The notes below the pieces were generated by a model. It was not told where the DNA came from. It made no database searches and worked only from the letters and a program-made list of their open reading frames with translations. From assembly GCF_003634015.1 (NCBI RefSeq), contig NZ_RBII01000002.1, forward strand, positions 523,597 through 587,596: a DNA stretch of 64,000 bases. The letters are read 5' to 3'. The translations under genes were made by a program, and so were the position numbers. Position 1 is the stretch's first letter. Each line of letters starts with the position of its first letter. Positions 9,378 through 24,776 of the stretch are shown here, piece after piece. Origin of the DNA: Litorimonas taeanensis (lineage in GTDB: Bacteria > Pseudomonadota > Alphaproteobacteria > Caulobacterales > Maricaulaceae).

Positions 9378-10343
9378 CTATTCCGCCACATCTAAGAAAT
9401 CGATGGGTTCTGGTAGACCTGTACGGAATGCAGATTGTCCCCCATTGAGGAAGAAATCCTGATCTTGTTTAAAGGCCTTAACGAGGAAATCGAAAACTGC
9501 CCTTATCCGGGTGGACCGTCTTAGATCTTGGTGAGCCACTAAATATAGCTCTTCTGTCACCGTGACATCTGGCAATATGCGTACCAGTTGATTTTTTTGT
9601 TTTTTCCTCGCGCCCCGCGTAATCGGCTGCATCCCAATACCGTAGCCATGCTCCATAGCTTCATCAAAGGCCCAAATAGAGTTTGTCTGGAATGTTATGC
9701 GCTTAGGAGAATGAATCATCACGTCTCCATCGCGTACCCAAAGCTGTTTGCCGTCCATAATATTGGCAATGACGCCGTCATGATCTGACATATCATCCAA
9801 AGTTTCAGGAGAACCCATTCGTTTAACATATTCTGGAGCCGCATAGAACCCAAATGAAACCGTCGCAATCTTACGACCAATCAATGAATTTTGCTCGCCC
9901 GGGCCTTCCCAGCGCAGTGCTATATCGGCCTCTCTTTGCGCCAAGTTAAAGTCTCTGAAGCCAATGCCCAAATCAATCAGAATATCGGGATGAGTTTTCC
10001 GAAAAACCTGCATCACACCTGGCAACCAAGCCGTTCCGATGCCCTCTGTCGCAGAGAGACGAACGACACCTGACAAACTATCCTCTAAGGTCGCAGAACT
10101 ACGGTCAATCGCCGCGGCTTCATCTTGCATACGCTGGATATGATCGAGCATAGATTGACCAAACCGTGTCGGAACAAGAACCCCGTCTTCTCTTCGCAAT
10201 AAAGGCGTTTTAAAATGGTCTTCCAGAGCTCTTATCCGACGGCCTACCGTGGGCTGGCTCATACCGAGCTTTTTGCCGGCGGCTGTTAAGCTACCGACCT
10301 CTGCGACTGCCAAAAATATAGGGTAATCCGACCAATTTTTCAT
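9378..10343 (-). CDS. LysR-family transcriptional regulator
   Basis: DNA-binding regulator of 321 residues. The N-terminal winged HTH occupies residues 1-60 (FLAVAEVGSLTAAGKKLGMSQPTVGRRIRALE). A LysR substrate-binding domain spans about 90-300 (RLSATEGIGTAWLPG..., FRKTHPDILIDLG, ADIALRWEGP). It is of the subgroup usually annotated near GcvA/DsdC. The ligand is unknown. It is divergent from the DUF983 gene, which may be its target, and lies just upstream of ubiE on the same strand. The start ATG has AGGGGTG ahead of it. Confidence 0.92.
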   Translation of the reverse strand: MKNWSDYPIFLAVAEVGSLTAAGKKLGMSQPTVGRRIRALEDHFKTPLLRREDGVLVPTRFGQSMLDHIQRMQDEAAAIDRSSATLEDSLSGVVRLSATEGIGTAWLPGVMQVFRKTHPDILIDLGIGFRDFNLAQREADIALRWEGPGEQNSLIGRKIATVSFGFYAAPEYVKRMGSPETLDDMSDHDGVIANIMDGKQLWVRDGDVMIHSPKRITFQTNSIWAFDEAMEHGYGIGMQPITRGARKKQKNQLVRILPDVTVTEELYLVAHQDLRRSTRIRAVFDFLVKAFKQDQDFFLNGGQSAFRTGLPEPIDFLDVAE

Positions 10344-10906: not shown

Positions 10907-10971
10907 GCCGAAGCGCAAAGCGCGCTTCAAAAGCCTTGACGCCAACAACTTAGGCAAGCATATCGCTATTA

Positions 10972-11092
10972 CTCATTAAGACCGGTGGAGGGACAGGCCC
11001 TAGGTTTTTATTGCGCAGACGGCACAATGGAAACGAGATACCGGGGCAACCCAGATGGTGCCAAATCCTGCGACGTTAGTCGGAAAATGAGG
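10972..11092 (+). promoter_or_regulatory. SAM-I (S-box) riboswitch upstream of metX-like gene
   Basis: Cis-acting aptamer that senses S-adenosylmethionine. The conserved S-box blocks are all present in order: GGTGGAGGGACAGGCCC starting at 10984, GGGGCAACCC with core GCAACC at 11046-11051, and GGTGCCAAATCC at 11057-11068. The closing helix P1 is CTCATT (10972-10977) with AATGAG (11086-11091). The expression platform lies between 11092 and the ATG at 11168. An AGGC/GCCT stem followed by a T-rich tract (about 11090-11120) could be a terminator, and a CCGA/TCGG stem lies near the start codon; I cannot decide between transcriptional and translational control. The downstream genes belong to methionine synthesis, as expected. 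Confidence 0.93.
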
Positions 11093-11167
11093 CAAAGGGC
11101 AAAAGCCTGTGTTTGTTTTCCGTAAAACCGTTCGTATTTTTGGCCCGACAAATGTAAGATCGGCATT

Positions 11168-12220: not shown

Positions 12221-13366
12221 ATGACAGACAAACCTCATATACAAACACAAATCGTCCAAGCTGAAATTGGATCTGACCCTGCTTTTGGCGCCGTGGCCCC
12301 GCCATTATATACATCCTCAACATATCTTTGGCCCAGTGTAGAAGAAAAAGGACCTTATGATTATGGCCGCACTGCCAACCCTAATCGCGCCGGACTCAGT
12401 AAGGCCTTATCCATATTAGAAGGCGGTTCTAGCACCGTAATTACTTCATCAGGAATGAGCGCAATCGACCTTTGCCTAAACCTTATTAAGGCTGACGACC
12501 TTATTATTGCCCCGCATGATTGCTATGGCGGCACGCATCGCTTGCTAACGCACCGCGCAGCACAAGGCCGCGTTCGCGTATTATTTATTGATCAATCAGA
12601 CCCTGAAGCACTTCACGAAGCGCTAGACGAAAAACCTGCAATGGTTTTAATAGAAACCCCATCCAACCCGCTCATGCGCCTTGTTGATATTTCTAAAATC
12701 GCAAAACTATCCAAGGCTTGCGGCGCCATCGTCGTGGCTGATAATACATTCTTGTCTCCTGTACGTCAGCAGCCGCTCTCACTAGGGTGCGATATCGTAG
12801 TACACTCAACAACCAAATATCTGAACGGCCACAGCGATGTTGTGGGCGGCGCCGTTATCGCAAAATCGGCTGAGCACGGCGAAACACTCGCTTGGTGGGC
12901 TAATTGCGCAGGTGTAACAGGGTCCCCCTTTGACGCGTGGCAAACTTTGCGCGGCCTAAGAACTTTATCAGCGCGAATGGACATTCAAGAAAGTAATGCC
13001 GAAGCGATTGCTAAATATTTGAAAAAACACAAAGCTGTCACCAAGGTTTACTACCCTGGTCTACGCTCTGACCCTGGGTATAAATTGATGAAAGCGCAAC
13101 AGTCAGGCCCCGGCGCAATGCTGTCCTTTGAACTCGAAACGCCTGCCCTTGCCGCTAAAGCCCTTAATTCAATTGAAATCTTTCAACTTGCAGCCTCGCT
13201 AGGCGGCGTAGAAAGTCTCATCTGTCAACCGTCTACTATGACCCATAGAGGTATGGCTGAGTCAGCTCGACTGGAAGCCGGCATAACAGATAATTTATTG
13301 CGGTTATCCGTTGGAATGGAGACTGAAAACGACTTAATCAAGGCCTTAGACAAAGCGCTAAGCTAA
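12221..13366 (+). CDS. metB: Cys/Met metabolism PLP-dependent enzyme (cystathionine gamma-synthase/lyase family)
   Basis: PLP enzyme of the trans-sulfuration family, 381 residues. The PLP lysine is Lys199 in VHSTTKYLNGHSDVVGG; Asp174 in ADNTFLSP binds the pyridine nitrogen, and SSGMSAIDL (from 76) and the YDYGRTANPNR loop contact the phosphate. All catalytic features are intact. Co-transcription with the MetX-like gene under a SAM riboswitch points to cystathionine gamma-synthase or O-acylhomoserine sulfhydrylase activity. Cystathionine beta/gamma-lyase activity cannot be excluded, so the symbol is provisional. Confidence 0.85.
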   Translation: MTDKPHIQTQIVQAEIGSDPAFGAVAPPLYTSSTYLWPSVEEKGPYDYGRTANPNRAGLSKALSILEGGSSTVITSSGMSAIDLCLNLIKADDLIIAPHDCYGGTHRLLTHRAAQGRVRVLFIDQSDPEALHEALDEKPAMVLIETPSNPLMRLVDISKIAKLSKACGAIVVADNTFLSPVRQQPLSLGCDIVVHSTTKYLNGHSDVVGGAVIAKSAEHGETLAWWANCAGVTGSPFDAWQTLRGLRTLSARMDIQESNAEAIAKYLKKHKAVTKVYYPGLRSDPGYKLMKAQQSGPGAMLSFELETPALAAKALNSIEIFQLAASLGGVESLICQPSTMTHRGMAESARLEAGITDNLLRLSVGMETENDLIKALDKALS

Positions 13367-13520
13367 GAACAAGCCTTTAAAAAGGATGTTTTTGCCTTTT
13401 GCGATATCAGTAGGACAAAAATTACCTATTATTTGCTGAAAAAGTTATAGTGAGGAGCAAAATTTCCTCTTGAGGAGTCTCTCGCAATAACCTAAAGAAA
13501 GAATTCGAGGAAAAGGTATT

Positions 13521-13664
13521 ATGCATCCATTTCAGAAACAAGACGAAGTCCAAGCAAAAGTTGCGGCGAAATCCGTGACTGTTGAAGACTTGCCGTCTGT
13601 GGCTGTGATGCTTGTGCTGATTCTGGCTGTGCTACTGATTAGCGGAGTCGCGAGCGGGATTTAG
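13521..13664 (+). CDS. 47-residue Val/Leu/Ile-rich reading frame, probable ilv leader peptide
   Basis: A reading frame too short for standard gene calling. It starts at ATG 13521 with a strong RBS (GAGGAAAAGG) and ends with TAG at 13662-13664. Residues 1-26 are polar (MHPFQKQDEVQAK...). Residues 27-40 are almost all branched-chain: V A V M L V L I L A V L L I, 11 of 14 being Val, Leu or Ile. It ends 26 bases before the intrinsic terminator that precedes ilvD. Together these suggest a ribosome-sensed leader peptide like E. coli IlvL, although 47 residues is long for one. The alternative is a small single-pass membrane protein, since the same stretch would make a membrane helix. Confidence 0.7.
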   Translation: MHPFQKQDEVQAKVAAKSVTVEDLPSVAVMLVLILAVLLISGVASGI

Positions 13665-13717
13665 GATAAAGATAACAAGCCTAATATTCACCCGCTCCAA
13701 CCAGAGCGGGTTTTTTA
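13652..13717 (+). promoter_or_regulatory. Putative branched-chain amino acid attenuator (antiterminator plus terminator)
   Basis: The terminator stem is CCCGCTC (13691-13697) with GAGCGGG (13704-13710), loop CAACCA, then TTTTTT. An identical GAGCGGG lies at 13652-13658, inside the last codons of the leader frame. It could pair with the same CCCGCTC arm, forming a mutually exclusive antiterminator. A ribosome stalled on the Val/Leu/Ile codons at 13599-13640 would leave the upstream copy free, whereas one reaching the stop at 13664 would cover it. The geometry matches classical attenuation ahead of ilvD at 13744. The mechanism is inferred; the sequence elements are exact. Confidence 0.75.
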
Positions 13718-13743
13718 TTGGGTTTAATTTTGTGAATTAAACG

Positions 13744-15435
13744 ATGACAAAACCAAAGAGCACCCCACAAGCAAAGCGTAGTGACGCGATTGTTAAAGGC
13801 CCGAGCCGCGCCGCTGCGCGCGCCATGCTTCGTGCCGCAGGTATGGATGATGACAATTTTGAAGGCCCAATGATTGCGGTCTTCAATACGTGGACCAATA
13901 TGGGGCCCTGCAATATGGACCTTGATAAGTTGGCCGTACCCGTGCGCGCCGGCATTCGCGCCGCTGGTGGCACACCTGTTGATTTCAACTCTATCGCTGT
14001 TTCAGATGGCATTACGATGGGAAGCGAAGGCATGCGGGCCAGCTTAATGTCCCGCGAAGTTATTGCAGACTCAATCGAACTCGCCGTCAAAGGTCATAGC
14101 CTTGACGGCGTTATTATTTTGGTGGGTTGTGATAAAACAATTCCCGCGGCAGGTATGGCTCTGGCGCGCATGAATGTACCCGGCGTTGTGCTTTATGGCG
14201 GCTCCATCATGCCCGGCAATCACAAGGGTAAAGACCTGTCAGTCCAAGACGTGTTCGAAGCTGTAGGCGCGTGTGCGGCCGGCATTATTGACGAAGACGA
14301 ATTGAAAGACATCGAAAAAGCAGCTTGTCCCGGAGCCGGGGCTTGTGGTGGTCAGTTCACAGCAAATTCAATGGCTATGGCCATGACCTTTTTAGGGCTG
14401 TCTCCAATGGGCGTTAATGATGTTCCTGCGGTTGACGAAGAAAAGAACAAAGCGGCCTATCGCGCAGGACAAATTGTTGTCGACTGCGTAAAAGACAATC
14501 GTCTGCCTCGGGAAATGATAACCCAGCAAGCCTTGATGAACGCAGCAATTGCCCTTTCGGCAACAGCGGCCTCCACGAATGCTATTTTGCATTTGCTCGC
14601 TATTGCTACAGAGGCAGAAGTGGAAGGCTTTGACATCGATGCTTTTGATACGATTTCGCGCACGACGCCCGTTATTGGTGACTTGAAACCAGGCGGGAAA
14701 TATATGGCGTTTAATTTATATGAAGCCGGCGGCTCGGCGCTTATTGGCAAACGCCTCGTTGAGGATGGGCGTATCAAAGACAGCCCAACGGTAACAGGTC
14801 GCAGTCTTTTTGAAGAGATTAACGACGCCAAAGAATCAGAAGGACAAGATGTTGTCCGTACCTTCAATGACCCTGTTAAGTCTCGCGGCGGTTATGGTAT
14901 TGTCTATGGCGACCTAGCCCCTGAAGGCTGCGTCGTGAAACTTGCGGGACATGGCGCTTTATTTTTTGAAGGCAAGGCCCGCGTCTTTGAATCAGAAGAA
15001 GCGTGTTTCGAAGTTGTTCAAAGAAATGAAATCAAAAAAGGCGATGTGATTATCATCCGTAATGAAGGCCCCGCAGGCGGCCCAGGGATGCGCGAAATGC
15101 TTGCGGTTACTGCGGCTCTTGTTGGACAAGAGATCATCGATGACGTTGCTCTTATAACTGATGGCCGTTTTTCAGGGGCGTCATATGGTTTTGTGATTGG
15201 CCATGTCGCACCAGAGGCCGCACATGGCGGACCTATTGCCTTTGTACAAGACGGAGACACTGTCACGATTGATGTAGAAGCTCGAACAATTAATGTCGAC
15301 GCTGACCTCGTGGCTCGTTCAAAAGATTGGACGCCGCCGAAACCTAAATATCCAAATGGCGCCTATGCTAAATTCGCAAAGCTTGTTGGCAGTGCCTCAA
15401 AAGGCGCCGTAACCTCTTTCCCATTTGACACCTAA
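13744..15435 (+). CDS. ilvD: Dihydroxy-acid dehydratase
   Basis: Dehydrates 2,3-dihydroxy-isovalerate and -methylvalerate to the 2-keto acids of valine and isoleucine synthesis. The protein has 563 residues, normal for the shorter IlvD type. The three iron-sulfur cysteines are visible: Cys56 (GPCNMDLD), Cys129 (VGCDKTIPA) and Cys201 in [16 protein letters not shown]. The C-terminal [12 protein letters not shown] motif is intact. It is the first enzyme gene of a nine-gene ilv-leu operon and starts 27 bases after the attenuator terminator. No frame problems seen. Confidence 0.98.
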
Positions 15436-15467: not shown

Positions 15468-16508
<1,041 letters not shown>

Positions 16509-16523
16509 ACGCCCGACTTAAGC

Positions 16524-16553
16524 TCTGCCGCTTTTCTCCTTTAGAGCGGCAGA
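16524..16553 (+). other. Intercistronic 9-bp hairpin between ilvC and ilvB
   Basis: TCTGCCGCT (16524-16532) and AGCGGCAGA (16545-16553) form a perfect stem with a 12-base pyrimidine-rich loop, 16 bases after the ilvC stop. There is no T-run after it, so it should not terminate. It may protect the ilvDC part of the mRNA or mark a processing site, giving unequal expression within the operon. Confidence 0.55.
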
Positions 16554-16580
16554 TCAAAGCGGCGCGATAGGAACATAACG

Positions 16581-18317
16581 ATGACCACAGCGAAACAATT
16601 TAACCGTCAACAGACGGAAATATTGGAAGACAGAGCCCCAAAATCTGGGTCTCAGCTCTTGCTTGAATCTATAGCCGCTCAGGGCGTGGATTTAATCTTT
16701 GGTTATCCAGGCGGCGCCATCATGCCCGTTTATGACGTCCTGCCGAGCATTCCACAGCTCCGCCACATTCTTTGTCGCCATGAACAAGCCTGCGGCATGG
16801 CGGCCATTGGTTATGCCCGCGCTACGGGTAAGGTCGGCACAGCCTTTGCAACATCTGGTCCAGGGGCGACCAACCTCGTTACCGCGATTGCCGATGCTTA
16901 TTTAGATTCCGTGCCTGTTGTCTTCGTCACGGGGCAAGTGCCTACGAATTTGATGGGAACGGATGCATTTCAAGAAGTCGACATTTTCGGCATAACCCTG
17001 CCCATAGTTAAACATAGCTATATTGTACGCGATCCGGCTGACCTTCCAGGTATGATCGCCGAAGCCTATTTCATCGCCGCAGAAGGGCGGCCAGGCCCCG
17101 TCTTAATCGACCTTCCAAAGGACGTTGCCAATGCGGTGACAACGGAGCGCCATAAATGGCGCCCTTACCCTAAAGTTAAACCTGAAATGGGTAAAAGTTC
17201 TGAAATAGAAAAGGCCGAGCAGTTAATTCGAGAGGCCAAAAAACCTCTCTTTTACATTGGCGGCGGCATAGCTCAGGGTGACGGGGTAAAAGAGTTACGT
17301 GACCTCGTTGAGCGCACACAGATACCTGTCGTTTCAACGCTTAAGGGGCTTGGCTCACTTCCTTCTGATCACCCAAATTACCTAGGCATGCTCGGTATGC
17401 ATGGTTTGAAAGCCGCCAATTACGCGGTGCAGGAATGTGATTTATTAATTGTCGCTGGTGCGCGTTTTGATGACCGCGCCACAGGCAAGCTAGATACGTT
17501 CGCCCCGCATGCAAAAGTTATCCATATGGATATTGATATTGCTGAAATTAATAAACTACGCCGCGTGAATGTTGGTCTTGATGGGTCATTGAAGAAGAAC
17601 CTCGCCGCTCTGGACCCTTTTGACGGCGGCGCAGCAACAGGCATTAATGATTGGCTAGAACTTTGTTATTCTCGTCGCGCTATGCATGAATGGGATTATG
17701 AAGGCGCGCAAGAAACAGCCTCTCCCGGCGTTTACGCCCCTAAATTATTACATGATCTCTCTCGACGCGCAGATGATAGCGCAATTTTCACCTGCGATGT
17801 AGGACAACATCAAATGTGGGTCGCACAGCATTGTTATTTCGACGATCCCAAAGACCACATTACATCAGGCGGCTTGGGAACAATGGGCTTTGGCCTTCCG
17901 GCGGGGCTTGGTGCAAAGCTTGGCGCGCCTGAACGCACCGTCATTACTGTGTCAGGTGACGGTTCAATCATGATGAACATTCAAGAACTCGCCACATTAA
18001 ACCGCTATGGTATTCCGCTGAAAATTGTACTGTTAGACAATTCGGTTTTGGGCATGGTGCGCCAGTGGCAAGAAGTATTCTTTGACAAAAATTATTCGGA
18101 AACAAATTTGGATGACAACCCAGATTTCGCGGAAGTTGCCAGAGCCTTTCAAATTGAGGCTTTCACCGTGAACACAGCGGATGAAATGGATGCTGGCATT
18201 GACCGTCTTCTTTCAACAGACGGCCCTGTCCTTATGCATGTAAAAATTGACCCCAATGAAAATGTTTGGCCACTCGTCCCGCCAGGGCGCAGCAATGCCG
18301 ACATGATGGAGCGTTAA
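16581..18317 (+). CDS. ilvB: Acetolactate synthase, large (catalytic) subunit
   Basis: TPP-dependent condensation of pyruvate with pyruvate or 2-ketobutyrate. The protein has 578 residues. GYPGGAIMPVYD and the activating Glu68 (RHEQACGMAA) are N-terminal. The TPP/Mg motif GDGSIMMNIQELATLNRYG and VLLDNSVLGMVRQWQ lie in the C-terminal domain, followed by HVKIDP and PLVPPG at the end. A biosynthetic (anabolic) enzyme is indicated by the operon context and the adjacent ACT-domain subunit that starts 1 base after this stop. Confidence 0.97.
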   Translation: MTTAKQFNRQQTEILEDRAPKSGSQLLLESIAAQGVDLIFGYPGGAIMPVYDVLPSIPQLRHILCRHEQACGMAAIGYARATGKVGTAFATSGPGATNLVTAIADAYLDSVPVVFVTGQVPTNLMGTDAFQEVDIFGITLPIVKHSYIVRDPADLPGMIAEAYFIAAEGRPGPVLIDLPKDVANAVTTERHKWRPYPKVKPEMGKSSEIEKAEQLIREAKKPLFYIGGGIAQGDGVKELRDLVERTQIPVVSTLKGLGSLPSDHPNYLGMLGMHGLKAANYAVQECDLLIVAGARFDDRATGKLDTFAPHAKVIHMDIDIAEINKLRRVNVGLDGSLKKNLAALDPFDGGAATGINDWLELCYSRRAMHEWDYEGAQETASPGVYAPKLLHDLSRRADDSAIFTCDVGQHQMWVAQHCYFDDPKDHITSGGLGTMGFGLPAGLGAKLGAPERTVITVSGDGSIMMNIQELATLNRYGIPLKIVLLDNSVLGMVRQWQEVFFDKNYSETNLDDNPDFAEVARAFQIEAFTVNTADEMDAGIDRLLSTDGPVLMHVKIDPNENVWPLVPPGRSNADMMER

Positions 18318-18318
18318 A

Positions 18319-18624
18319 ATGACTGAACTACAACGTGATAAAATCTTTGAACCCTCTGGCGTTCAAGGCAAATTAAAAGTCGTCCTGCACGATGTGTCTG
18401 GCACATTGTTACGCGCTCTTGGCACAATAGAACGCCGCGGTTATGACTACCGGGATGTACACTGTACACAACGCGTCGATGGCGATTTTGACTTGCTTGT
18501 ACATGTTGAAGATACAGGCGGCCCGAATGATTTGCACACTCTCTGCCTCCAACTGGAGCGACTGTATAATGTCGTCTCCGCCGAGCGCGTTGGACGACGG
18601 ACAAGAGCTGAGCACGCAGGGTAA
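18319..18624 (+). CDS. Short ACT-domain protein, IlvM-like regulatory subunit of acetolactate synthase
   Basis: Likely small subunit partner of the preceding IlvB. Only 101 residues, with a single ACT-like fold: KLKVVLHDVSGTLLRALGTIERRGYDYRDVHC, then FDLLVHVE, then LCLQLERLYNVVSAE. The L-x-R-x-L-G-x-IERRGY pattern and the closing 'QLERLYNV' match small subunits. Typical alphaproteobacterial IlvH/IlvN subunits are about 160-180 residues, with a second domain after the ACT domain. This resembles the compact E. coli IlvM (about 87) instead. The start overlaps ilvB translation (ATG 1 base after TAA, GGAG inside ilvB). It is not a frameshifted longer gene as far as I can see: the sequence after the stop is the 25-base gap to leuA. 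Confidence 0.8.
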   Translation: MTELQRDKIFEPSGVQGKLKVVLHDVSGTLLRALGTIERRGYDYRDVHCTQRVDGDFDLLVHVEDTGGPNDLHTLCLQLERLYNVVSAERVGRRTRAEHAG

Positions 18625-18649
18625 ATCATTTAATTTAACAGACATCATT

Positions 18650-20209
18650 ATGACCAATCACGTCAAAATTTTCGACACAACTTTACGCGACGGCGAACAA
18701 GCGCCAGGCTTTTCTATGACTTCAGGCCAAAAACTGAAGATGGCGAAAGCGCTCGAAGGTCTGGGCGTCGATATTATGGAAGCAGGGTTTGCGGCAGCAT
18801 CTCCCGGTGATTTTGAGGCCATTAAAACCATCGCTACAGAAGTCAAAGACTCCATCGTTTGCTCTCTCGCCCGATGTAATGAGGGCGATATTCGCGCAAG
18901 CGGCGAAGCCATCAAACCTGCAGCAAAATCAGGGCGCGGCGGACGTATTCATACCTTTATTGCAACCTCTCCGCTCCACAGAGAATTTAAGCTTAAAATG
19001 TCTATGGACGAGATCGTGCGCCGCGCCACTGCCGGCATTGAGCTCGCCCGGCAATATACTGATGATGTTGAATTTTCTTGTGAGGACGCGATCCGAACGG
19101 AACGAGATTATCTTAAACGTGTTGTCGAGGCCGCTATTAAAGCCGGCGCGACAACGATCAACATACCCGACACGGTCGGTTATACAACGCCAGAAGAAAT
19201 CCAGAGCCTGTTTGAATTTTTGGCGTCTGACATTGAGGGTGCGGACAGCGTAACCTTCTCAGCCCATTGCCATGACGACCTTGGCCTCGCCGTTGCGAAC
19301 TCTCTCGCCGCCGTGCGCGGCGGCGCGCGGCAAGTCGAATGTGCCCTTAACGGCATTGGTGAACGCGCAGGTAATTGTGCCCTCGAAGAAGTTGCCATGG
19401 CACTTCGCACGCGGAAAGATTTCTTTGGTTTATCAACACAGTTAAAAACTGAGGGCCTTTATGGGGCGTCAAAACTTCTAGCGACCATAACCGGCAACCC
19501 TGTTCCACGTAATAAAGCCATCGTCGGCAAGAACGCCTTTGCCCATGAATCGGGTATCCACCAACACGGCGTTTTGGCGAACCGTGAAACTTATGAAATT
19601 ATGAAACCCGAAGATGTCGGAGTGAGCACCGACAACCTTGTTCTCGGGAAGCATTCAGGACGTGCTGCGCTTAAAAATCGAGCGGAAACATTGGGTTTTG
19701 AATTGGGTGACAATCAGCTTCAATCACTTTTCGTTAAATTCAAACATTTGGCCGATGAAAAAAAAGAAGTCTTCGATGCTGATATCGAAGCCTTGATATT
19801 GGGCGAGGCTGTTGGTGAAATTGGGCCTTGGGCTTTGGAAAGTCTATATGTTTCGGCAGGGTCAGATGACGGGAAACGCCCCGTCGCCACGGTCAGACTT
19901 CACCATGAAGATGGTCGCAAAGAGACATGGAGCCAAGAAGCGGCAGGGCCTGTAAACGCAACCTTCCTCGCCATTTCACATATTACCGGCCAACCATTAC
20001 ACCTTGATAGTTTCTCTGTTCAATCTGTCACAGAGGGCGAAGACGCTATGGCCGAAGCCTCGGTAATGGTCAGCACTGAGTTTTCTAGCTATCATGGTCG
20101 CGGTACGAGCACAGATACAGTCCTCGCAGGAGCCCGTGCTTATCTTGATGTAATCAACCGTATCGAACGGCGCGCAGACAGACAAAAATCCATTGCTGCG
20201 CAACATTAG
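18650..20209 (+). CDS. leuA: 2-isopropylmalate synthase
   Basis: Condenses acetyl-CoA with 2-ketoisovalerate, the first leucine-specific step. The frame is open from 18443, but the correct start is the ATG at 18650 ([21 protein letters not shown]), giving 519 residues; the longer form would overlap the IlvM-like gene. The metal-binding motif [10 protein letters not shown], the [17 protein letters not shown] motif with metal His residues and NGIGERAGN are present. The C-terminal third is the leucine-sensing regulatory domain, ending after a Gly-rich [16 protein letters not shown] segment. It continues the ilv operon. Confidence 0.97.
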
Positions 20210-20217
20210 GGTGATTT

Positions 20218-21612
20218 ATGACACAAACTCTCTTTGATAAAGTTTGGAACAGAAACGTTGTTGTTCCAGAAAGCGATACGCAGCCCGCTACACTTTATAT
20301 CGGGCTTCACCTGATCCACGAAGTGACATCACCGCAAGCCTTTACGGTTCTGCGCGAACGTGGCCTAAAAGTCCGGCGTCCTGATCGTACTTTGGCAACC
20401 ATAGATCACTCTACGCCGACTCTCATTAATCCTGACGGCTCTCGGCCATACGTCACCGAACAGGCGGAAAAACAAGTCCAAACACTCCTCGCCAACGCTA
20501 AGGAATACGGCATTGAAACACATGGGTGGGATAGCGATAATCGCGGCATTGTACATGTCATGGGGCCAGAGCTTGGCGCCACGCAGCCCGGCATGACAAT
20601 TGTTTGCGGAGATAGCCATACATCTACCCATGGCGCCTTTGGTGCAATTGCTTTTGGAATCGGGACGACACAGGTCGGCCATGTCTTAGCCAATCAATGT
20701 ATCCTGATGCGAAAACCCAAAACAATGGCTATCCATGTAAACGGAACGCTTCAAGACGGCGTTACGCCCAAGGATGTTATCCTCGCTATTATTGCGAAGA
20801 TTGGCGTCGGTGGCGGCACAGGTTACGCGCTGGAGTATTGCGGTAATGTGTTCCGCGAAATGAGCATGGACGGCCGTATGACGGTTTGTAACATGTCTAT
20901 CGAAGCGGGCGCACGGTGCGGCATGATCGCCCCTGATGAGACCACATTTGCATATTTAAAGGGCCGGAAATTTGTTCCCGAAAACTATGCGGCCGCCTGT
21001 AAAGATTGGGCCTCTTTGGCGACAGATGAGGGGGCGGTATATGATAAAGAAGTTCATTTACGTGCCGAAGACATCAAACCCATGGTAACATATGGCACCC
21101 ATCCTGGCATGGGCATTTCAATTGATTCTCTTGTTCCTGCGGCCGCAGATGATGCTGATGAAAGCGCTTTACGTTATATGCAATTAAAGGCGGGGCAAAC
21201 TATAGCCGGCACTAAGGTTGATAAGGTCTTTATCGGGTCTTGTACTAATTCACGAATGGAAGACCTTCGCGCCGCTGCAAATATTTTCAAAGACCGCCGA
21301 GTCGCTGAAAATGTCACCGTTATTATTGTACCGGGATCCGTCTTGGTAAAAGCACGTGCCGAAGAAGAAGGCCTTGATAAAATTTTCATCGCAGCGGGTG
21401 CTCAATGGCGAGAGGCTGGATGTTCTATGTGTCTAGGCATGAACGGCGATATTGGGCAACCCGGAGATTTGATCGTATCGACATCAAACCGCAATTTTGC
21501 GGGCCGCCAAGGCCCGGGCGTTCGAACGGTTCTTGCCTCCCCGGAAACGGCGGCGGCCGCAGCGGTGACGGGCGTTATCACTGACCACAGAACATTAGGA
21601 GCGGCAGCATGA
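20218..21612 (+). CDS. leuC: 3-isopropylmalate dehydratase, large subunit
   Basis: Aconitase-family enzyme isomerising 2- to 3-isopropylmalate with LeuD. The protein has 464 residues. [21 protein letters not shown] is near residue 130. The [4Fe-4S] cysteines lie in GSCTNSR and CSMCLGMN, in normal spacing. It begins 8 bases after leuA and its last 4 bases overlap the leuD start (ATGA), indicating translational coupling of the two subunits. Confidence 0.98.
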
Positions 21613-22193
21613 GCTTCAAACCTATGACCGTCGTCACATCGAAAACAGTCGTATTACCTGCGGCCAATATCGATACAGATCAAATTATGCCTGCCCGTTT
21701 TTTAACGATGACAACCAAGTCTGGGCTCGGCAAACACCTTTTCAACGATTGGCGCTACGATGAGGACGGCTCAGAAACCGATCATAAATTAAATAGCGAA
21801 GCAGCAAAAGCCTGCGAAATTCTTGTCGGCGGTCACAATTTTGGCTGTGGCTCTTCACGTGAGCATGCGCCTTGGGCCTTGACGGATTACGGATTTAGAG
21901 TCGTCATCAGTTCAGAAATTGCGGATATATTTCGAGGTAACTCATTAAAGAATGGCCTGCTGCCAATTGTGATTGATAAACGCGCACATGCATGGTTACT
22001 GGAAAACCCCAGTGCAGAGGTCACTGTTGACCTAGAGAACTGCGAAGTAAGGCTGCCCCGCAATGGCGGCACCTATAGTTTCGAGATTGATAGTTTTTCA
22101 CGGCATTGCCTGATGGAAGGCGTCGATGAAATGGGCTTTCTTCAAACACAAGGTGACGCCATTACGGCTCATGAAGAAAAAATAAGTAATTAA
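21609..22193 (+). CDS. leuD: 3-isopropylmalate dehydratase, small subunit
   Basis: Swivel-domain partner of LeuC, 194 residues. Motifs [14 protein letters not shown] at the N-terminus and [17 protein letters not shown] (about residues 74-90) are diagnostic of the bacterial LeuD1 type. It overlaps leuC by 4 bases and is followed by leuB after 2 bases. No anomalies. Confidence 0.98.
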
Positions 22194-22195
22194 AT

Positions 22196-23251
22196 ATGAC
22201 CACTTTGAATTTTACTTACCTACCAGGTGACGGGATAGGCCCCGAAGTAGGGGATGCCGCTATTGCTGTATTACGGGCGATTTCCGATAAATTTGGCCAT
22301 ACGTTATTACCTGAGTTTCACCTGATTGGCGGCGCCGCGATTGACGCTGTAGGCCAACCTCTACCCGCAGAAACTTTTGAATCTTGCGAGCGTACAGGTG
22401 CCATTTTATTGGGCGCCGTTGGCGGCCCGAAGTGGGACCATTTAAAAGGGGCAGACCGACCCGAACTTGGTTCGCTTTTGCCACTCCGCAAAGAGCTCAA
22501 CCTTTATGCAAATATTCGTCCCTGCGCACCTTTTCCTGCGTTGATTGATAATGCGCCCTTGAAACGTGAAAGGCTCGAAGGCGTGGACTTTGTTGTTATG
22601 CGAGAGCTCACGGGCGGGATATATTTTGGTCAAAAAGGCCGTGATGTAAATGGGGCTTATGATGAGTGCCGTTACTCTGAAGCTGAAATTCGGCGCATTG
22701 CTATCAAAGCTTTTGATTTGGCTGCAACGCGTAAGAAAAAAGTAACTTCAGTCGATAAATCTAATGTGCTTGAGACGTCACGCCTTTGGCGCGAAACCGT
22801 CATTGATGTGGCGACAAACTACCCTGATGTTGAACTTGAACATTTACTCGTCGATGCCATGACGATGCACATGCTTACCCACGCGCAAGATTATGATGTA
22901 ATTTTGACTGAGAATATGTTCGGCGATATTTTAACAGATGAAGCTTCTGTCTTATGCGGATCAATGGGCGTCATACCTTCTGCGTCTTTATCTGATGGCA
23001 AAACAGGCATGTATGAGCCTATTCACGGCAGCGCCCCAGACATAGCAGGTGAAGGAAAAGCCAACCCTATTGCCATGATATTATCCGCCGCATGGATGCT
23101 CCGTTTATCCTTTGGTTTAGACAAGGAGGCCGCCCTTATCGAAGCCGCTGTAGAGGCCGCTTTGGAACAAGGGCAAACCACAGGTGACCTTGGCGGCACA
23201 CTGACGACCGCGCAAGTGGGCGACTGGATAGCGAGTCATGTCAGCCAATAA
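22196..23251 (+). CDS. leuB: 3-isopropylmalate dehydrogenase
   Basis: NAD-dependent oxidative decarboxylation of 3-isopropylmalate to 2-ketoisocaproate. The protein has 351 residues. LPGDGIGPEV opens the protein; MRELTGGIYFGQKG carries substrate-binding Arg/Tyr; the TENMFGDILTDEAS motif holds metal-binding aspartates; GMYEPIHGSAPDIAG is the NAD-binding loop. The C-terminus overlaps the ilvA start by 14 bases, so ilvA is likely translated by coupling. Confidence 0.98.
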   Translation: MTTLNFTYLPGDGIGPEVGDAAIAVLRAISDKFGHTLLPEFHLIGGAAIDAVGQPLPAETFESCERTGAILLGAVGGPKWDHLKGADRPELGSLLPLRKELNLYANIRPCAPFPALIDNAPLKRERLEGVDFVVMRELTGGIYFGQKGRDVNGAYDECRYSEAEIRRIAIKAFDLAATRKKKVTSVDKSNVLETSRLWRETVIDVATNYPDVELEHLLVDAMTMHMLTHAQDYDVILTENMFGDILTDEASVLCGSMGVIPSASLSDGKTGMYEPIHGSAPDIAGEGKANPIAMILSAAWMLRLSFGLDKEAALIEAAVEAALEQGQTTGDLGGTLTTAQVGDWIASHVSQ

Positions 23252-24776
23252 ACCGCTCATTGACCTGCATGAATTAAAGGCCCGTATTGAATCCGCTAAT
23301 GTTTACGCATTGGCCAAACGGACGGGCTGTGAACTTGCGCCCAAATTAAGCCTCGAACTTGGACGCAATGTTTGGCTGAAGCGAGAAGACCTACAAGATG
23401 TCTTTAGCTTTAAAATACGCGGTGCGACGAACCGCATAGCCGAGCTCACAGATGAAGAACGCGCCTGCGGGGTCTGTGCTGCGAGTGCAGGAAATCACGC
23501 ACAAGGTATCGCAACCGCCGCCGCTTATTATAATACCAAAGCCATCATCTTTATGCCCGTCACAACGCCGGCCATCAAAGTCGCTGCCGTACAAAGCCAT
23601 GGCGCCGAAACACGGCTGGTCGGCGATAGCTATGATGCGGCATGTGAAGCCGCGATTACCTATGCGCAAATGTCGGGCGCCGTTTTCATTCACCCTTTTG
23701 ATGAGATTTCAGTTATCGCAGGACAAGGCACTGTTGGCCGCGAAATATTAGAGCAAATGCCCCGCACACCAGATGCCGTGTATATCCCCGTTGGCGGCGG
23801 TGGTTTAATATCGGGCGTGGGGGCTTGGGTTAAATCTGTCTCGCCCAACACCAAAATCATCGCTGTTGAGCCCGAAGGCGCGCCGACACTGCTGACCTCA
23901 CTTGAGGCCGGTCAACCCACCACACTTGAAAGCGTAGATAGTTTTGCGGACGGCGTAGCGGTCAAGCGTATTGGTACGCATACATTTGATGTCGCACAGC
24001 GCCTCGTTGATGAAGTAATATGCGTTTCGAATGATGAAATTTGCGCCGCCGTAAAAGATGTTTTCGAAGCCACCCGAACTGTTGTTGAACCCGCAGGGGC
24101 TCTCGCCCTCGCGGGATTGATTAAACACACACGTTTGGGACAGGCGCCCGAAGGGGATAGCGTTGTAATTTTATCTGGGGCGAATGTAAATTTTGACCGT
24201 ATTGGTCATATCGTCGAACGCGCTGAACTTGGGGCTGGAGAGGAAATGCTCTTCGCTGCTGCCATTCCAGAAAAGCCCGGCGCTTTTCTGAATTTCTGTA
24301 ATGCCTTAGGGCGCCGCGCAGTAACAGAGTTTAATTATCGCTACACTGAGAGCGACACGGCACATGTATTAGTCGGTATCAAAACGCGTGATTTACAAGA
24401 CAGAGAGCAAGTCACTGCTGACATGGCCACACATAATATCTCTATCACGGATTTATCTAATGACCGCCTCGCCAAACGGCATTTAAGACATATGGTCGGG
24501 GGCCGCACAAGCACGTCCATTGCAGAGGTCATATATCGGTTTGAATTTCCAGAACGCCCCGGCGCGCTCACTGATTTTTTAATAGCATTAGACGATCGAT
24601 GGAATATTAGCCTCTTCCATTACAGAAATCACGGCAACACAACTGGCCATGTTCTTTGCGGCTTTCAAGTCCCCAAAGGAGATATGGAAGCTTTGGAAGA
24701 AAGCTTATCAAAAACTGGCTATCCAATGTCTGAGGAAACAGACAGCAAAGCCTATGAATATTTTTTAAGAGCTTGA
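23238..24776 (+). CDS. ilvA: Threonine deaminase (biosynthetic, two-ACT-domain form)
   Basis: PLP enzyme converting threonine to 2-ketobutyrate, the first isoleucine step. The protein has 512 residues, the long allosteric type like E. coli IlvA. The PLP lysine is Lys59 in VFSFKIRGA; SAGNHAQG and the phosphate loop PVGGGGLISG follow. The C-terminal about 180 residues hold two ACT-like modules, each starting with an E-[KR]-PG[AS] segment (IPEKPGAFLNFC and FPERPGALTDFL), expected to bind isoleucine and valine. Last gene of the operon. Its product chemistry releases 2-aminoacrylate, which RidA (2.2 kb downstream) would hydrolyse. Confidence 0.97.
   Translation: MSANKPLIDLHELKARIESANVYALAKRTGCELAPKLSLELGRNVWLKREDLQDVFSFKIRGATNRIAELTDEERACGVCAASAGNHAQGIATAAAYYNTKAIIFMPVTTPAIKVAAVQSHGAETRLVGDSYDAACEAAITYAQMSGAVFIHPFDEISVIAGQGTVGREILEQMPRTPDAVYIPVGGGGLISGVGAWVKSVSPNTKIIAVEPEGAPTLLTSLEAGQPTTLESVDSFADGVAVKRIGTHTFDVAQRLVDEVICVSNDEICAAVKDVFEATRTVVEPAGALALAGLIKHTRLGQAPEGDSVVILSGANVNFDRIGHIVERAELGAGEEMLFAAAIPEKPGAFLNFCNALGRRAVTEFNYRYTESDTAHVLVGIKTRDLQDREQVTADMATHNISITDLSNDRLAKRHLRHMVGGRTSTSIAEVIYRFEFPERPGALTDFLIALDDRWNISLFHYRNHGNTTGHVLCGFQVPKGDMEALEESLSKTGYPMSEETDSKAYEYFLRA

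Follow-up and report, generated by a model that had tools for sequence, protein, structure and literature searches.

A conserved leader that probably attenuates transcription of the ilv-leu operon in Litorimonas taeanensis and its relatives

Attenuators that work through a leader peptide typically include a protector stem (1:2). In the ilvL leader of Escherichia coli, which precedes ilvGMEDA, a frame rich in Val, Leu and Ile codons is followed by a terminator ahead of the structural genes, and the best partner of the 5' arm of this terminator is found within the coding sequence, at 32 to 23 nt upstream of its stop codon. Caulobacter belongs to the same order as the organism studied here. In the excerpts of the reports used here, the ilvBN attenuator of Caulobacter crescentus is described with tandem Ile and Val codons and a rho-independent terminator (PMC4117421), and the ilvD gene of the Staphylococcus aureus ilv-leu operon with a leader peptide and a terminator ahead of it (PMC5794164). 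The ilvB-II motif of Corynebacterium is presented, in the corresponding excerpt, as an upstream open reading frame (uORF) rich in branched-chain codons with a terminator and an antiterminator (PMC10272879). A stop codon placed far downstream in region II was put forward by Elf and Ehrenberg in 2005, in the part of their article drawn on here, as a way to keep basal read-through low (PMC1183508).

The locus analyzed here lies in a stretch of 64,000 nucleotides from Litorimonas taeanensis (the window), for which an earlier note had proposed that a ribosome translating Val, Leu and Ile codons controls attenuation of an ilv-leu operon. This proposal is well supported by comparative sequence, and the element very probably acts in cis to attenuate transcription of the operon by way of the translating ribosome (Table 1). 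The genes from ilvD to ilvA are likely to form a single transcript; no ilvE was found among those genes that were tested. At E up to 1e-120 the genome holds a single large subunit of acetolactate synthase, so all three amino acids may be gated by this one attenuator.

Table 1. Coordinates in the window of the leader elements and of the operon that follows them.
Feature	Position	Strand	Evidence
Weak candidate promoter, TTGAGG, 17 nt, TAAAGA	13470-13498	+	sequence only
Ribosome-binding site GAGGAAAAGG, rated fair	13507-13516	+	sequence
Leader reading frame, 47 codons	13521-13664	+	sequence; homologous leaders in relatives
Control codons, residues 27-40, Val/Leu/Ile 11/14	13599-13640	+	sequence, window control, relatives
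Region 2, antiterminator 5' arm GAGCGGG, within the final leader codons (A-S-G)	13652-13658	+	CGGG arm in 37/37 loci
Antiterminator inner helix, TTAGG (13661-13665) with CCTAA (13680-13684); 5' strand holds the stop codon	13661-13684	+	folding against loop shuffles
Region 3, CCCGCTC, common to antiterminator and terminator	13691-13697	+	sequence, alignment, folding
Intrinsic terminator ACCCGCTC-loop-GAGCGGGT with six T	13690-13716	+	terminator scan, covariation
ilvD, first structural gene	13744-15435	+	gene search
Rest of operon	15480-24776	+	gene searches
ilvC	start 15480	+	gene search
ilvG-type acetolactate synthase	start 16581	+	gene search
ACT-domain protein (small subunit)	start 18319	+	gene search
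leuA	start 18443	+	gene search
leuC	start 20218	+	gene search
leuD	start 21609	+	gene search
leuB	start 22196	+	gene search
Threonine dehydratase (ilvA)	start 23238	+	gene search

The leader frame opens with an ATG at 13521, closes with a TAG stop at 13662-13664 and encodes the 47-residue peptide MHPFQKQDEVQAKVAAKSVTVEDLPSVAVMLVLILAVLLISGVASGI. The coordinates that had been claimed for it, with its ribosome-binding site and the 11 Val, Leu or Ile among residues 27 to 40, were verified. This run is beyond chance, because none of 20470 control stretches of fourteen residues, taken from 73 stop-to-stop frames in the window that span 120 amino acids or more, held 11 or more of these residues. As in other attenuators of this kind, the leader is a short frame with many codons for the amino acids that its operon makes. 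The 210-nt leader RNA folds with a z of -4.86, and equal stability was reached in none of 200 shuffles. Transcription may start from the weak candidate promoter, which is absent from the output of a consensus promoter scan; a CTTGA box stands near the same position in several relatives. Searches of Pfam and NCBIfam with the leader peptide gave no match, and nothing in Rfam 15 reached its gathering score on the leader of the window, where Phe_leader scored 16.1 bits (gathering 55) and Trp_leader 13.7 bits (gathering 41), both far too low.

The terminator CCCGCTC/GAGCGGG with six T that had been proposed just before ilvD was confirmed, and so was the competing GAGCGGG that overlaps the final codons of the leader. 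Both copies of GAGCGGG, the second of which (13704-13710) runs directly into the six T at 13711-13716, are complementary to the one CCCGCTC, and the two pairings are mutually exclusive. An intrinsic terminator thus stands between the leader and the first gene, and its 5' arm is shared with an antiterminator. The two structures are matched in stability in the window, at -14.9 kcal/mol for the antiterminator and -14.8 kcal/mol for the terminator. A scan of 13200-14000 found this one terminator where 0.9 are expected by chance, so that by itself the terminator of the window is weak evidence. The inner helix of the antiterminator, TTAGG/CCTAA over the leader stop codon, does not figure in the account given by the earlier note.

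According to the proposed mechanism, a ribosome would translate the leader behind the RNA polymerase and, when charged Val, Leu or Ile tRNA is short, would stall within codons 27 to 40. The first GAGCGGG would then be free to pair with CCCGCTC, aided by the inner helix, and the antiterminator so formed would preclude the terminator and let the polymerase continue into ilvD. With the arm and the inner helix covered by a ribosome, CCCGCTC would instead pair with the second GAGCGGG, and transcription would stop at the T run.

Relatives were collected by an IlvD search, which gave 44 loci. Their record titles are mostly Hellea, Robiginitomaculum, Algimonas, Litorimonas and uncultured Caulobacterales or Hyphomonadaceae, with a few Dokdonella, Chloroflexi and Actinomycetes. 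Algimonas is assigned to Robiginitomaculaceae, order Caulobacterales, in an abstract (PMC11556061). The conservation set comprised 36 relatives and the window (37 loci), 35 of which entered the alignment A1 and the stop-position and folding tests. A terminator and an upstream CGGG arm, the latter sought with a permissive CGGG pattern, lie behind a frame rich in Val, Leu and Ile in 37/37 loci. At least 9 of 14 residues are Val, Leu or Ile in 34 of the 37; the weaker runs of the remaining loci (8/14 in L044, L048 and L065) count against an attenuator. Invariant throughout A1 are positions C4-G7 of the arm (CGGG) and CCCGC. Counted from the first base of CGGG, the stop codon begins 7 nt downstream in 27 of the 35 loci and 11 nt downstream in five, where the arm is read in another frame and AGL or AGG replaces SG; the stop codon is therefore inside the antiterminator in 32/35 loci, and in the other three (L039, L049, L061) it comes before the arm. 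A comparative alignment of the leader, which the earlier note had listed as a check, thus preserved the Val, Leu and Ile codons and the pairing of arm and terminator and left the peptide looser. It makes the case for an attenuator strong, with the nucleotides of the arm conserved rather than the peptide.

The spacing of the codons agrees with what the footprint of a ribosome would predict. Counted upstream from the arm over the 35 loci, the frequency of Val, Leu and Ile per codon is 0.26, 0.20, 0.26, 0.57, 0.74, 0.94 and 0.97 from position -1 to -7 and 0.71-0.89 from -8 to -15, with the peak at -6 and -7. These codons are dense 13 to 45 nt upstream of the arm and sparse in the final 9 nt. Since a ribosome stalled on a codon in the A site shields some 12 nt beyond it, a stall at -5 or earlier would leave the arm free. 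The control codons are in this way spaced such that a stalled ribosome frees region 2.

These observations bear on whether the frame is instead a small membrane protein with a function of its own, followed by an ordinary terminator. Such a protein would account for the strongly hydrophobic C-terminal half and for the N-terminal E-P-K-V-K-V-A motif, which is mildly conserved across genera for no evident reason and is weakened in the window (13542-13570). Among the 23 of 35 leaders that were aligned for this purpose, pN/pS ranged from 0.41 to 0.57 over three N-terminal blocks, from 0.82 to 0.96 in the middle and from 0.42 to 0.48 at the end of the Val/Leu/Ile run. We nevertheless regard this explanation as extremely improbable, given that CGGG is fixed while the peptide is loose, even where the arm is out of frame or past the stop codon, that the density of Val, Leu and Ile drops in the final 9 nt, and that the peptide has no match in Pfam or NCBIfam. 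Moreover, among the best 30 loci matched by the model R1, 28 lie with ilvD and one with ilvC-ilvG, the last being a short contig piece with neither in the fetched stretch.

A third possibility is that the terminated leader (about 200 nt) or its peptide is also active in trans, besides a role in cis. There is a precedent in rnTrpL and peTrpL of the alphaproteobacterium Sinorhizobium, as described in the excerpt used (PMC7298713), and the leader is long with a somewhat conserved first half. No sign of a target was seen, and the conservation of that half is mild, with many synonymous differences (pS 0.67-0.75 in the three N-terminal blocks), which makes an additional role in trans improbable.

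Since MAFFT did not align the inner helix, the antiterminator was judged by folding against loop shuffles. Over the 35 loci it was more stable than the shuffles (mean z -1.72), with 20 loci under 10%; the combined p of 1e-14 is too small, the loci being kin. For the window by itself, 32 of 200 loop shuffles were equally good, and in L039, L044, L049 and L061 stability was no better than in the shuffles. A folding scan over the loci peaked at the antiterminator (mean z -2.35), and the inner helix recurs with other letters in folds inspected by eye (TAGAAT/ATTCTA in L024, AGAATA/TATTCT in L065). Covariation of the outer helix was within controls: its percentage paired was matched by 269 of 500 shuffles and its covariation score by 109 of 500. 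When the helix was slid, five of six versions exceeded it in covariation and none paired in more than 54%, versus 88.6% for the helix itself; its covariation is uninformative because the four core pairs show no variation. The terminator pairs in 95.4% of alignment cells, and two of its pairs are changed on both sides, which is some covariation. A pause hairpin for RNA polymerase 90 to 50 nt before the arm was considered and rejected, its mean z of -0.75 being modest for 18 windows tried on related loci; the scan windows from -150 and -140 had the opposite sign (mean z +0.36 and +0.41).

The earlier note had further suggested a weak GCTTGT/GCGAGC pairing as protector. This pairing can be drawn, yet found no support as a conserved feature in a test of limited sensitivity. 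Over 35 loci with 60 codon permutations each, the mean probability that the arm pairs upstream was 0.63 versus 0.65 for the permuted sequences, with results per locus from 2/60 to 59/60 (median fraction 0.57; window 38/60). A test of the same kind on E. coli leaders gave 0.96 versus 0.57 for ilvL (0/100), 0.63 versus 0.53 for ivbL (1/100), 0.78 versus 0.51 for hisL (6/100), 0.69 versus 0.66 for leuL (41/100) and 0.43 versus 0.46 for trpL (62/100), with the window at 0.40 versus 0.50 (88/100); region 2 was assigned by script in this comparison, and for trpL, ivbL and the window the assigned stretch is doubtful or overlong. No terminator turned up in the scan for thrL, which hence stands outside the comparison; of the five E. 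coli leaders for which one was found, two are missed by the test. A full three-hairpin attenuator of the classical type, with a protector stem 1:2, would be in keeping with the failure of trpL and leuL to show a protector here, with a weak folding signal within the 40 nt upstream of the arm (mean z -0.81) and with the loci whose arm pairs upstream more than permuted (L066, 2/60; L048, 4/60; L035, 6/60). It appears unlikely, since the loci taken together do not differ from their permutations, whereas E. coli ilvL clearly does.

The loci may represent a conserved attenuator sub-design that lacks a protector and has the leader stop codon inside the antiterminator, a reading whose probability falls somewhat short of even. 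In such a leader, arrival of the ribosome at the stop codon would be the sole barrier to formation of the antiterminator, and the position of the stop codon (+7 or +11 from the start of CGGG, or before the arm) would set basal read-through, in line with the stop-position strategy of Elf and Ehrenberg. An untranslated leader should then read through, which is an odd default. The naturally varying position of the stop codon makes it possible to test how its placement sets basal read-through.

Upstream of the leader lie metX and metB. A SAM riboswitch (RF00162, 49 bits) is located ahead of these genes at 10970-11093 of the window, and a LysR-type regulator recognized by Pfam lies near them on the minus strand (9378-10343). 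The terminator of the ilv leader may also end the met transcripts, as no other was found in the 13200-14000 scan. The metB gene was present in the fetched upstream DNA of 27 of 36 relatives and absent in L032, L049 to L052, L054, L055, L060 and L065 (for L051, in 1.2 kb of upstream DNA). Given that metB is upstream in just these 27, the element travels with the ilv operon.

The distribution of the element was explored with the model R1, using in both genome searches stricter filters that lose weak matches. Among the family's 137 genomes it matched 45 at E up to 1e-5 and 66 at 0.01; among 398 genomes of the order it matched 31 at 1e-4, all within the same family. In L095 the order is metB, element, ilvC and ilvG, so that the element heads ilvC rather than ilvD. 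None of six gene queries matched the short contig piece (L083), and ilvD was nearby in none of eight weaker R1 places. In other genera, 24 genomes searched with IlvD at 1e-150 gave 13 loci. Inspection by eye showed a diverged element in a shifted register in two of them: in L103 the arm CGGGAGCGG stands opposite CCGCTCCCG with complementarity kept, and in L102 it is likewise kept with one G-U pair. In ten others no element was recognized by scan (also by eye for L098 to L101 and L105); L099 and L101 have a terminator-like hairpin without the other parts, and L107 has frames with 6-7/12 Val, Leu or Ile without the rest.

The remaining locus, L104, which was likewise read by eye, comes from a genome (G082) of another family of the order. 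Its leader frame ends in four tandem Leu codons, R, P and a stop codon, directly followed by GGGAGCGGG and then by a CCCGCTCC/GGAGCGGG terminator, about 70-170 nt before ilvD, after which comes leuA. Its appearance is that of a leucine attenuator laid out in a similar way. At 12 acetolactate synthase loci from 17 genomes, a scan that proved too strict found no leader at 7/12 Val, Leu or Ile. When eight of the 12 upstream regions were read, L124, L125 and L126 were seen to have short frames with ALVLV, VLVI and LIV ahead of terminator-like hairpins, at most 330 nt before the acetolactate synthase gene and in other families of the order. By their sequence they resemble short ilvB attenuators such as that of Caulobacter.

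The mechanism is one already known, and the leader family itself is, as judged from the alignments, conserved and, at gathering score for the leader of the window, without a match in Rfam. Within one alphaproteobacterial family, most of the branched-chain pathway is probably under its control. Literature searches returned no account of this leader family, which is weak evidence of absence, subscription papers being mostly outside their coverage. From the described systems the locus differs in several respects. The Caulobacter attenuator precedes ilvBN and not an operon led by ilvD, and the likeness to it is one of description in the excerpt, not of sequence. In S. aureus, the excerpt describes Ile and Leu codons, a terminator 52 nt past the stop codon, an antiterminator that pairs the poly-U tail, and control by CodY as well (PMC5794164). 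The uORF of Corynebacterium ilvB-II, which is also likened by description and not by sequence, usually has 15-17 codons and precedes another gene, according to the excerpt used (PMC10272879). Compared with E. coli ilvL, the leader is longer (47 versus 32 codons). The arm of ilvL starts 32 nt before the stop codon and pairs strongly upstream, whereas in the window the stop codon lies within the antiterminator, beginning 7 nt past the start of CGGG, and a protector was not detected. The design had been called undescribed; this does not hold for an arm within the coding part, known from ilvL, or for a distal stop codon (PMC1183508), but the layout without a protector and with the stop codon inside the antiterminator may be a variant of these systems.
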